This document shows positions 5,483 through 8,443 of a stretch of 44,217 nucleotides of DNA, one piece after another; position 1 is the stretch's first letter, and the number at the start of each line of letters is the position of its first letter. The stretch is from positions 1 through 44,217 of the forward strand of contig JAGHJP010000029.1 in NCBI GenBank assembly GCA_017886575.1. The letters run 5' to 3'. A program made the translations under genes and the position numbers. Source of the DNA: Clostridia bacterium. GTDB lineage: Bacteria > Bacillota > Clostridia > Christensenellales > Borkfalkiaceae. The notes under the pieces are model-generated. The model was not told the DNA's origin, made no database searches, and was given only the letters and a program-made list of their open reading frames with translations.

Positions 5483-6121
5483 CTATTCGCCGAGGGGGAA
5501 CGGCTCGAACGCCTCGCCCGTCTTTTCGATCTTTACCCGCCCGTTGAGCGCATCCGTCAAAGCGCGGACAAAGGTTTCCCTTTCCGTCGCGGGCATCGAG
5601 AGGGTATAACGCACCTCGGCGGCATATTCGGCGTCCGCGACGGTCAGGCCGCGGGCGGCAAAAAAGCGGAGCGCCGCGTCCGCCTGCGGATAATCGACGG
5701 TAACGGCAAACTTTGCCGCGGACTGCCAGAGGCAGATCTCCGCCGCGTCCAACACCTCGGCGCACGACGAGGCATAGGCGCGCACCAGCCCGCCCGCGCC
5801 CAGTTTGACGCCGCCGAAATAGCGCGTGACGACGACCGCCGTTTCGTACAAGCCCTTGCTTTTGATGACTTCCAGAATGGGCATGCCCGCCGTGCCCTGC
5901 GGTTCGCCGTCGTCCGAAAATCGCTGCAACGCGCCCGTGCGGTCGGCAACGAAGGCGTAACAGTTGTGGGTCGCCGCGGGGTGCATGCCTGCGATCTCCG
6001 CGACAAACGCCTTTGCTTCCGCCTCGCCCGACACATGGGCGCAACAGGCGATGAAGCGGGATCTTTCAATGACTTTTTCCTGCGTCGCCCGCCCGCGCAC
6101 GCTGCGGATGATCTCGGGCAT
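5483..6121 (-). CDS. yigZ: YigZ/IMPACT-family protein
   Basis: A 212-residue member of the YigZ/IMPACT (UPF0029) family, which is linked to translation or ribosome-associated regulation but has no settled function in bacteria. Seen: the N-terminal signature KVIERSRFIACCAHV, then HNCYAFVADR, RFSDDGEPQGTAGMPIL and the conserved VVVTRYFGGVKLGAGGLVRAY (residues about 95-115), followed by a DUF1949-like C-terminal domain from about residue 140. It starts 4 bp after the tyrS stop codon, so it is co-transcribed with tyrS and would share its attenuation control. Confidence 0.92.
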   Translation of the reverse strand: MPEIIRSVRGRATQEKVIERSRFIACCAHVSGEAEAKAFVAEIAGMHPAATHNCYAFVADRTGALQRFSDDGEPQGTAGMPILEVIKSKGLYETAVVVTRYFGGVKLGAGGLVRAYASSCAEVLDAAEICLWQSAAKFAVTVDYPQADAALRFFAARGLTVADAEYAAEVRYTLSMPATERETFVRALTDALNGRVKIEKTGEAFEPFPLGE

Positions 6122-6125
6122 GGTA

Positions 6126-7322
6126 TTACCCTACGATGATCTTGACGTGTACTTTTTTGCCCTTGTGCAGCACAAATTCCTTGGCAGGGACAGGCATGGC
6201 AAGGTCGGTCACCTTGTCGTCGTTCACGGACACGCCGCCCTGCTCGATGAGCCGCCGCGCCTCCCCTTTGGACTTGCAGACCTTCGCCGCGACCATCGCG
6301 TCGATGACGGTCGCCGTGTCCGCGGGCACGTTCGCCGTGGGCATGCCCTCTTCGCTGCCGCCGAACGCCGCCTTCGCCTGGGACTCGGCTCTCTTCGCCG
6401 CCTCCTCGCCGTGCACCATCTTGGTCAGTTCGTAGGCAAGCACCTCCTTGGCGTGATTGATGCGCTCGTCCTTATGCGCGCAGAGCGCGGCAATCTCGTC
6501 CAAGGGCAGATAGGTCAAAAGTTGCAGGCACTTTTGCACGTCCTCGTCCGCCGTGTTCCGCCAATACTGGTAGAACTCGTAGGGCGAAGTCTTGTTTTCG
6601 TCCAGCCAGAGCGCCCCCTTTGCCGTCTTGCCCATCTTGCGCCCGTCGGACGTAGTGAGCAGGGTGAAAGTCATGGCATAGGCGGGCTTGCGCTCCTTGA
6701 TACGGATGAGGTTGGCGCCCGCGAGAATATTGCTCCACTGGTCGTCGCCGCCGAGTTCGAGCGAGCAGCCGTACTTGCGGTTGAGCACCAGGAAGTCATA
6801 CGCCTGCAGAAGCATGTAGTTGAATTCGAGGAAGGACAGCCCGCGCTCCAGCCGCGTTTCGAAACACTTGGCGCGGAGCATTTCGTTGACCGAGAAATGC
6901 GCGCCGATCTCGCGCAGGAAATCGATATAATTGAGGTCGAGGATCCAGTCGGCGTTGTCGACGATGATCGCGCCGTTCTCCCCTTCGAAACTGATGAATT
7001 TGCTCATCTGCTTTTTGAAACAGTCCACGTTGTGCTGCACGGTCTCGCGGGTCATCATGGAGCGCATGTCCGTCCTGCCCGAAGGGTCGCCGATCATGCC
7101 CGTGCCGCCGCCGACGAGAATGATGGGCTTGTGCCCCGCCTCCTGCATGTGGTGCATGGCGATGAGCTGCAAAAAGTGCCCGACGTGCAGGGAATCCGCC
7201 GTGGGATCGAACCCGATGTAGAAGGGCACGCTCTCCTTGCCGAGTTTTTCGTACAACTCCTCTTCGAATACCGTCTGTTTGATGAAGCCGCGCTCTCTGA
7301 GCGTATCCATTACGTTTTTCAT
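6126..7322 (-). CDS. tyrS: Tyrosyl-tRNA synthetase
   Basis: TyrRS charges tRNA-Tyr with tyrosine in the cytoplasm. It is a full-length class I synthetase of about 398 residues. Seen: HVGH (HIGH motif, near residue 47), [13 protein letters not shown], the tyrosine-pocket region [16 protein letters not shown], the KMSKS-loop equivalent GRKMGKT, and a C-terminal S4 RNA-binding domain ([14 protein letters not shown]). Two ATGs are close together; the one at 7322 was chosen because AAGGAG lies 7 nt upstream, whereas it abuts the ATG at 7328. Upstream are a Tyr-rich leader ORF and an intrinsic terminator; no T-box consensus was found. Operon with yigZ. Confidence 0.96.
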
Positions 7323-7355
7323 TGTCATTCTCCTTAAAACCGTTCGTTCGGTATC

Positions 7356-7384
7356 ATTTTATCATTTTCCGCCGCCGAAGGCAA
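7356..7384 (-). promoter_or_regulatory. Possible second, tyrS-proximal promoter
   Basis: On the minus strand: TTGCCT (7384-7379), a 17-bp spacer and TAAAAT (7361-7356), placed directly after the T-run of the attenuator terminator. It would give a short tyrS mRNA that bypasses attenuation. Moderate match only. Confidence 0.5.
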
Positions 7385-7385
7385 C

Positions 7386-7428
7386 AAAAAAAGGGACGCC
7401 CGCCGTCATAAATCACGCGCCGTCCCCT
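7386..7428 (-). terminator. Intrinsic terminator in the tyrS leader (attenuator)
   Basis: On the minus strand AGGGGACG (7428-7421) pairs with CGTCCCTT (7398-7391), followed by a run of seven T (7392-7386). It lies between the Tyr-rich leader ORF and tyrS. The loop is about 22 nt with an inner CGT/ACG pairing. An alternative pairing with the 3' part of the leader ORF is possible (GCGCC at 7482-7478 with GGCGC at 7421-7417; GCCTT at 7480-7476 with AAGGC at 7433-7429), which would block this hairpin. Confidence 0.75.
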
Positions 7429-7461
7429 GCCTTCCGTAAAAAAATTTACTCTCTACGTCCG

Positions 7462-7548
7462 TCATGCATGGAAAAAAGGCGCATTACATTTCCGATAGTA
7501 ATACGCATAGATCGCATACATTCCGTTTTGCCGCAAAAAATGTTTCAT
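7462..7548 (-). CDS. Tyrosine-rich leader peptide of tyrS (28 aa)
   Basis: A 28-codon ORF ending in TGA, 140 bp before tyrS and on the same strand. It contains five Tyr codons at positions 11, 14, 16, 17 and 18 (core MYAIYAYYYRK), a composition typical of amino-acid-specific attenuator leader peptides. The codons lie just upstream of the candidate antiterminator segment (7482-7470), so a ribosome stalled for lack of Tyr-tRNA would leave that segment free, while one reaching the stop codon would cover it. A consensus promoter ends 6 nt before the ATG, so the ORF is probably translated from a leaderless mRNA; only a weak AGGA is nearby. The peptide itself probably has no other function. Inferred from sequence alone. 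Confidence 0.75.
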   Translation of the reverse strand: MKHFLRQNGMYAIYAYYYRKCNAPFFHA

Positions 7549-7554
7549 GTTCCT

Positions 7555-7584
7555 ATCATAACATAACCGCGAAAGGATTGTCAA
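7555..7584 (-). promoter_or_regulatory. Promoter of the tyrS leader transcript, -35 inside an inverted repeat
   Basis: On the minus strand: TTGACA (7584-7579), an 18-bp spacer and TATGAT (7560-7555) with an extended TG. The -10 box ends 6 nt before the leader ATG. The -35 box lies in the loop of a perfect 10-bp inverted repeat, CCGCGAAAGG / CCTTTCGCGG (7567-7576 and 7587-7596), which could be an operator or a terminator for the upstream gene. Confidence 0.7.
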
Positions 7585-7626
7585 GCCCTTTCGCGGGATA
7601 ATTTTTTATTCATCTGCCGCCGTCCG

Positions 7627-8443
7627 TCATTCGCCGAGCAAAGGCAAAAACACCAACCCGTCCACCGCATAGTACATCGTCCTTTCGCTGAGCGCCCTGT
7701 CCGACTCGCATACGAGATAATCCGCATAGGGATATACGGTCAGGTTGAAAAAGCGGTCGCTGCCGTCGATCTCTATGCGGACGCCGCCCGCCGAGCGGTA
7801 ACCGCACGCTTCGGCGCCGCAATTTCCCAGCATGGACAGAAGCTCCTCTGCCGTCACCGGAAACGGTGACCTTCAACACCGTATCTTCGGGCATGCCTGC
7901 CAGCAATTCACAATAATTTTCGACGGAGGGCGTTTCCGCCTCGACGGTCTTTTGATGGGCTTCCAGCGCGGCTGCATACTTCATCGGCCCGTGCACGCCC
8001 GCCAGAACGGCCGCCCCCGCAAAGAGCACGACCGCCGCCAGCACCGCCGCACCGACGCCCTTCCTTGGCCGCACCGGCACCCCGCCGTGAGAGCAGACGC
8101 TCTCGGCAACGCAGCAGACGACGAGCGCGGCGAGAGCAATGCAGAAGAGGGGCGTCAGATCGCCGTAACAGAGCTGCGAACCGAGCGCCGCCAAGGCAAG
8201 AAAGACGATGCCGACCGCATATTTTGCGATCATGAAAGCGCGGGGCGACGCGGAGAAATATTGCAGCGCGGTCAGCCCGACAAACATCCCCGTGCAGATG
8301 AAACTTGAAATTTCCAAAAAGAGCGCCGCCATGCCGAAGAGGCTGTACAGATTATAGCGAAACACAAAGTGGATGCCGACGAGCAGCGCGACGAGCGCGG
8401 CGCTGCCGATAAAACCGACAGCCGTACCAATTTTCTGTTTCAT
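7627..8443 (-). pseudogene. Membrane protein of unknown function with a frameshift
   Basis: The N-terminal part (8443 to about 7865, roughly 190 residues) is a multi-pass membrane protein with about five or six hydrophobic segments. From about 7865 the original frame turns into an Arg-rich nonsense tail, while the next frame (7857-7627) gives a natural-looking 76 residues (from TAEELLSMLGNCGAEACGY to LVFLPLLGE). One extra G in TTTCCGGTGACGG would explain the shift; an intact protein would be about 270 residues. The start at 8443 has AGAGGAAAAGGAC upstream. The ENYCELLAGMPEDTVLKV region resembles the proteins at 4153-4761 and 3151-4092. It is either a recent mutation or a sequencing error. Confidence 0.65.

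Follow-up and report, generated by a model that had tools for sequence, protein, structure and literature searches.

The tyrS-yigZ operon of this Clostridia genome is very probably controlled by a Tyr-specific, ribosome-mediated transcription attenuator predicted to sense Tyr-tRNA(Tyr). The region upstream of tyrS carries the anatomical elements of leader-peptide attenuation: clustered Tyr codons in a short open reading frame (ORF), a terminator before tyrS, and an alternative antiterminator. An earlier note on this DNA had proposed ribosome-mediated attenuation, and the anatomy, the conservation of the Tyr codons, the two-state folds, and the lack of a T-box all support that reading. Three points go beyond that note: a probable leaderless start, T-box exchange within the family, and further Tyr leaders at other aromatic genes. 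The elements lie on the reverse strand of the window, the whole 44,217-nucleotide stretch analysed, and are listed below in the direction of transcription.

7555-7584, minus strand: promoter P1, TTGACA (7584-7579), an 18-nt spacer, and TATGAT (7560-7555), with a TG before the -10 box (11/12 consensus).
7462-7548, minus strand: leader peptide ORF MKHFLRQNGMYAIYAYYYRKCNAPFFHA, 28 codons followed by a stop, identified by its reading frame and conserved Tyr codons.
7495-7518, minus strand: Tyr codons 11 (7518-7516), 14 (7509-7507), and 16-18 (7503-7495), the proposed stall site, from sequence and conservation.
7469-7482, minus strand: GCGCCTTTTTTCCA, the predicted antiterminator 5' strand, which lies after the Tyr codons and before the leader stop, from duplexfold.
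7416-7427, minus strand: segment GGGGACGGCGCG, forming the terminator 5' arm and the start of its loop and also the predicted antiterminator 3' strand, from folds and duplexes.
7386-7427, minus strand: intrinsic terminator, stem GGGGACG...CGTCCCT at 7427-7392 (dG -16.7) and seven T at 7392-7386, from sequence and folding.
7356-7384, minus strand: possible second promoter P2 (TTGCCT-17-TAAAAT, 9/12 consensus), after the terminator.
6126-7322, minus strand: tyrS, tyrosine--tRNA ligase (TIGR00234, E=1.6e-127).
5483-6121, minus strand: yigZ, an IMPACT family gene (TIGR00257, E=2.2e-50).

The two TIGRFAM matches and the sequence itself bear out the earlier description of a 28-codon ORF with five Tyr codons, three of them consecutive, a terminator hairpin with seven T between this ORF and the next gene (7427-7386), and tyrS followed by yigZ downstream. 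yigZ begins a few bases past the tyrS stop and is likely co-transcribed with it. The tyrS start is probably at 7322 and not at the ORF opening at 7328; tyrS of relatives begins MKNVMDTLR or MANVMDTLR. In seven genomes that lack the leader (L007, L011, L015, L023, L024, L028, and L029), a small, related-looking gene of ~60-75 codons lies directly before tyrS.

In the proposed mechanism, transcription would start from P1, at the leader ATG or within ~3 nt of it, and ribosomes would load on this leaderless end. When the supply of Tyr-tRNA(Tyr) is sufficient, the ribosome would reach the leader stop and cover 7482-7469, upon which the terminator (7427-7386) would form and transcription would end. 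With charged tRNA(Tyr) scarce, the ribosome would stall at codons 14-18 and leave the pre-stop segment free; 7482-7469 would then pair with the terminator 5' arm at 7427-7416, and polymerase would read into tyrS. Four of these steps we infer: that the ORF is translated, that initiation is leaderless, that ribosomes stall, and that the system responds to tyrosine.

We gathered the tyrS upstream regions of relatives from whole genomes and genome contigs and recovered the same anatomy, a Tyr-rich leader and a terminator directly before tyrS, as 23 distinct leaders from as many genomes in at least six genera, a recurrence that chance falls far short of explaining. Examples of the short Tyr-rich ORFs at the equivalent site in several genera, each closed by a stop codon, are MRHFLSENGRYNIYAYAYCGGAFVCRA, MKNISVTLAYVYYFYYRG, MDHALFLAIYGAYYRIR, and MKNYFAYVTTAYYAAYYSCDDTLLRRAKAK. 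A scan of 301 family genomes that was blind to tyrS, combining a promoter with TAY-GCN-TAY-NNN-TAY (YAYxY), matched 24 genomes versus one control match; 16 of the 24 matches are immediately upstream of tyrS, and among the others several precede other aromatic genes. Of 50 regions sampled upstream of tyrS in the family, 11 contain the leader; a strict terminator scan is positive in ten of these, and the eleventh has a terminator with a weaker T run. Over the 50 genomes, the two features are associated (Fisher p 3e-4). In the relatives, the terminator thus accompanies the ORF and its Tyr codons (11/11 leaders), as the earlier reading had predicted. Even single genera carry the leader unevenly, and it is absent from a congener of the window's genome (G002). 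Two further genomes (L015 and L024) have a similar hairpin between promoter and tyrS, with weakened T runs and no leader ORF; these hairpins are likely decayed attenuators.

The leader ATG lies 6 nt after the P1 -10 box in the window, and the P1 transcription start is expected at or within 3 nt of this ATG. Across all 23 tyrS leaders, the distance from the end of the -10 box to the ATG is 6 nt (11 leaders), 7 nt (two), or 9 nt (ten). With the usual spacing of bacterial promoters, such distances leave only 0-3 untranslated nt at the 5' end, too few for a Shine-Dalgarno (SD) site. The leader peptide is therefore probably translated from a leaderless mRNA, a reading based on the near-consensus -10 box found 6-9 nt before the ATG in 23/23 leaders. 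Alternatively, the attenuator could be real but its leader read from a longer mRNA that has an ordinary ribosome binding site, for example one made by readthrough from the upstream gene. An AGGA just before the leader ATG in the window would fit such a transcript, which we consider unlikely, though not negligibly so: the AGGA is too near the ATG and is not conserved (e.g., ATCATAAACATATG in L002), and the invariant placement of the -10 box also speaks against it, as do other long ORFs at a similar distance from -10 boxes in the window's genome (G000). In that genome, long ORFs open 5-10 nt past consensus promoters at 28 places (e.g., L162, L165, L178, L182, L185, and L186), and those at leaderless distance from TTGACA/TANNNT include, by reading, hisZ-like and ThiF-like genes. 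The raw excess of ATG over its anagram control GAT at this distance is modest (28 versus 17), which is why leaderless initiation of the tyrS leader is something we infer and do not assert.

The ORF spacing in G000 also suggests that leaderless mRNAs are common in the window's organism. Separately, an inverted repeat, CCGCGAAAGG...CCTTTCGCGG, spans the P1 -35 box at 7567-7596 and is possibly the terminator of the upstream gene. We rejected it as an operator, as L002 lacks it and L003 retains only part of it.

Among the 374 ATG ORFs of 15-45 residues in the window, only the leader ORF, together with its internal ATG, holds at least four Tyr within eight residues. A gap-free alignment of 14 leaders has Tyr at codons 11, 14, 16, and 18 throughout, and Tyr makes up 19% of leader codons when the 23 leaders are pooled. 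Within the alignment, TAT and TAC replace each other (TAT/TAC 7/7 at codon 14, 4/10 at codon 16, and 9/5 at codon 18), and pairwise differences at codon positions 1, 2, and 3 number 418, 359, and 668, the third varying most. Fixed Tyr residues, TAT/TAC exchange, and the third-position excess form the pattern expected if the Tyr content of the peptide, and not the DNA, is under selection; the alignment of relatives that the earlier note had suggested thus finds the Tyr codons kept and varying synonymously. Codon 1 is an ATG at a fixed distance from the -10 box in all leaders and is the preferred start; a start at the internal ATG (codon 10) was rejected, as other leaders have Arg, Ile, Leu, or Tyr there. 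Another Tyr-rich ORF in the window's genome (L174, MYYYAYYAPF...) was rejected as a second leader, as it lies, by reading, before rpoB and lacks the leader anatomy.

A real leader might sense general ribosome slowing or an antibiotic, in the manner of ermC or hflX, and not tyrosine, since any stall within codons 11-18 could be served by the same leader, terminator, and alternative pairing. This is very unlikely, because Tyr is fixed at four positions while neighbouring residues vary, the gene downstream encodes the Tyr synthetase, and other Tyr leaders precede aroF and tyrA.

The folding models yield the two alternative states that such an attenuator needs. The earlier note had proposed a pairing between the pre-stop segment and the terminator base, and the best duplex reproduces it as 7482-7469 with 7427-7416, at -15.4 kcal/mol, a strength that taken alone has p 0.17. 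With the stalled state defined by a ribosome modelled on the last Tyr codon of the cluster, the window fold reaches -23.9 versus a shuffle mean of -15.7 (p 0.017), and the window leader RNA is more stable than its shuffles (z -3.2). A ribosome modelled at the stop covers 70% of the antiterminator partner bases in the window.

The same two states are predicted across the relatives, where a terminator is present in 23/23 leaders (dG -9.7 to -24.4). In the stalled-state model, all 23 leaders form pairs between upstream leader RNA and the terminator 5' arm, mostly via the stop-codon region; when the ribosome is placed at the stop instead, the terminator forms in full or almost in full. Folding with and without a stalled ribosome, a check that the earlier note had proposed, thus agrees with its model. 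Single-leader structure tests are weak, many giving p 0.05-0.5, and the values that follow, combined over leaders, ignore relatedness. Stalled-state folds are more stable than dinucleotide shuffles of the upstream segment (Fisher p 1e-7), and duplexes of the stop region with the arm are stronger than shuffled ones (Fisher p 2e-5). Pairs with the terminator arm number 9.5 versus 7.2 in shuffles (p 0.014), and duplexes with the cognate arm are stronger than those with arms from other genera (p 0.001). Coverage of the partner bases by a ribosome at the stop fails in five of the 23 leaders, being 0% in g1_G001, g11_G045, g9_G012, and CALVLV and 12% in g3_G191. RNAalifold on the alignment of one genus (g3) recovered the terminator and not the antiterminator, and the antiterminator was assessed through shuffles and duplex energies in its place.

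The hairpin could also simply end the upstream gene's transcript or a short stable leader RNA, with tyrS expressed mainly from P2 and the ORF incidental. A P2-like site, TTGCNN-17-TANAAT, occurs in the window and three other leaders (two g1 and two g7 genomes, 4/23), where it would suit that arrangement. We find it hard to credit, since a comparable P2 is missing in 19/23 leaders, a strong promoter stands between the upstream gene and the hairpin, and the ORF and its Tyr codons are conserved along with the hairpin. Under the preferred attenuator reading, P2 may supply attenuator-independent basal tyrS expression in the window, bypassing the attenuator.

Synthetase genes of Firmicutes are textbook T-box targets, and tyrS T-boxes are usual there. 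In the window leader, no Rfam family reaches its gathering score, the phe, his, trp, leu, and thr leaders included. As the earlier note had held from the letters, a T-box is lacking: the covariance model RF00230 gives no match even at E<=10 in 7300-7700, and the same model finds seven T-boxes in the window's genome. A T-box too degenerate or divergent for Rfam to recognise, or a riboswitch of another kind that binds a tRNA or a ligand and escapes Rfam, is barely conceivable despite the prevalence of tyrS T-boxes in Firmicutes and their presence in genus g8, given the empty search, the lack of a UGGN-type sequence before the terminator, and the ~120 nt expected from transcription start to terminator, 87 nt of which are ORF.

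Both sensors occur within the family. In genus g8, a T-box lies directly before tyrS (L060 and L051), with UAC at the specifier position as read from the alignment. Of the seven T-boxes in the window's genome, four have downstream genes that were read: leuA, a trpX-type ABC transporter, ilvB, and a trpB-like gene. On this sequence evidence, namely the g8 tyrS T-box and the T-boxes on leuA, ilvB, and other amino-acid genes of the window's genome, the RNA sensor is exchanged gene by gene within the family. The g8 T-box class (RF00230, UAC specifier) would share with the tyrS leader its gene, its signal (uncharged tRNA-Tyr), and transcription antitermination; it differs in binding tRNA directly, without a translated ORF, and is absent at the window's tyrS.

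A close likeness is to the pheST leader (pheM), which also combines a short ORF of cognate codons, a choice between antiterminator and terminator, and a synthetase gene downstream. Other leader-peptide attenuators of synthetase genes precede trpS and leuS in Streptomyces (PMC1262725) and cysS in Rhodobacterales (uORFC-8-2; PMC8632094). The tyrS leader differs from all of these in its Tyr specificity, its phylum, the lack of sequence relation (no Rfam match), and its probably leaderless start. Within Firmicutes, His leader peptides precede hisS*/hisZ in bacilli (PMC2965389) and his operons in the B. cereus group, Peptostreptococcaceae, and Erysipelotrichales (PMC9413887). They likewise represent classical leader-peptide attenuation replacing T-boxes for a given gene; they concern His and not Tyr, and are not known to involve leaderless starts or a Tyr set. 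The earlier note regarded a Tyr leader peptide controlling tyrS as undescribed, and this part stands, as we found none described in the open-access literature; its novelty is narrowed by the his/hisS attenuators already known from Firmicutes. An attenuator whose leader peptide is made with no ribosome binding site is that of C. glutamicum ilvBNC (Morbach 2000, as cited in PMC4046766), which, according to that citation, responds to branched-chain amino acids in an actinobacterium.

Other aromatic genes of the relatives carry similar leaders. Tyr/Phe-rich leaders (MNEFYAYFYFAYYFVDHI, MKNVRSNSYAYFYFKGFYESPFCGMRG, and others) with terminators precede DAHP synthase (aroF) in g2 (L208 and L209) and in another family of the order (L218-L223), and in g6 such a leader lies nearly 400 nt before DAHP synthase (L212). 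A Tyr leader, MLNNQKFFYYAYFYFKPY, with a terminator precedes prephenate dehydrogenase (tyrA) in g8 (L192), and another, MFYFYTAYAYYYFTTI, with a terminator precedes a sodium:solute symporter in g6 (L211), which may be an aromatic amino-acid transporter. Within the family, the non-tyrS aromatic leaders have an SD-like site, and the tyrS leaders have none. Aromatic leaders before DAHP synthase are known as uORFC-13-1 in Acholeplasma (PMC8632094) and as a Phe-Tyr-Phe leader in Corynebacterium glutamicum (PMC4046766); they resemble the aroF leaders described here and differ from the tyrS leader in their Phe or Phe/Tyr specificity and in not preceding tyrS. Further Tyr-pattern matches in the order (L213-L217 and L224-L229) were rejected as mostly ordinary gene starts with TATGCGTAT-like strings. 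His leaders sought with the same pattern in 121 family genomes gave seven matches versus two in the control, and the matched sequences were unconvincing.

We lean towards a tyrosine regulon under leader-peptide attenuation (tyrS, aroF, tyrA, and the symporter) in this order of uncultured gut Clostridia, with a leaderless tyrS branch that would replace the Tyr T-boxes some members still use for tyrS. Within one family, one synthetase gene has a T-box, a presumably translated Tyr leader peptide, or neither, and the same cell keeps T-boxes elsewhere, making the exchange of RNA sensors testable through close relatives. A leaderless leader peptide would raise the question of how SD-less initiation is coordinated with polymerase to let the leading ribosome decide between terminator and antiterminator. 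If the tyrosine regulon reading is true, these genomes would provide a natural series for a single gene, whose sensor was swapped while the gene and its signal stayed constant.
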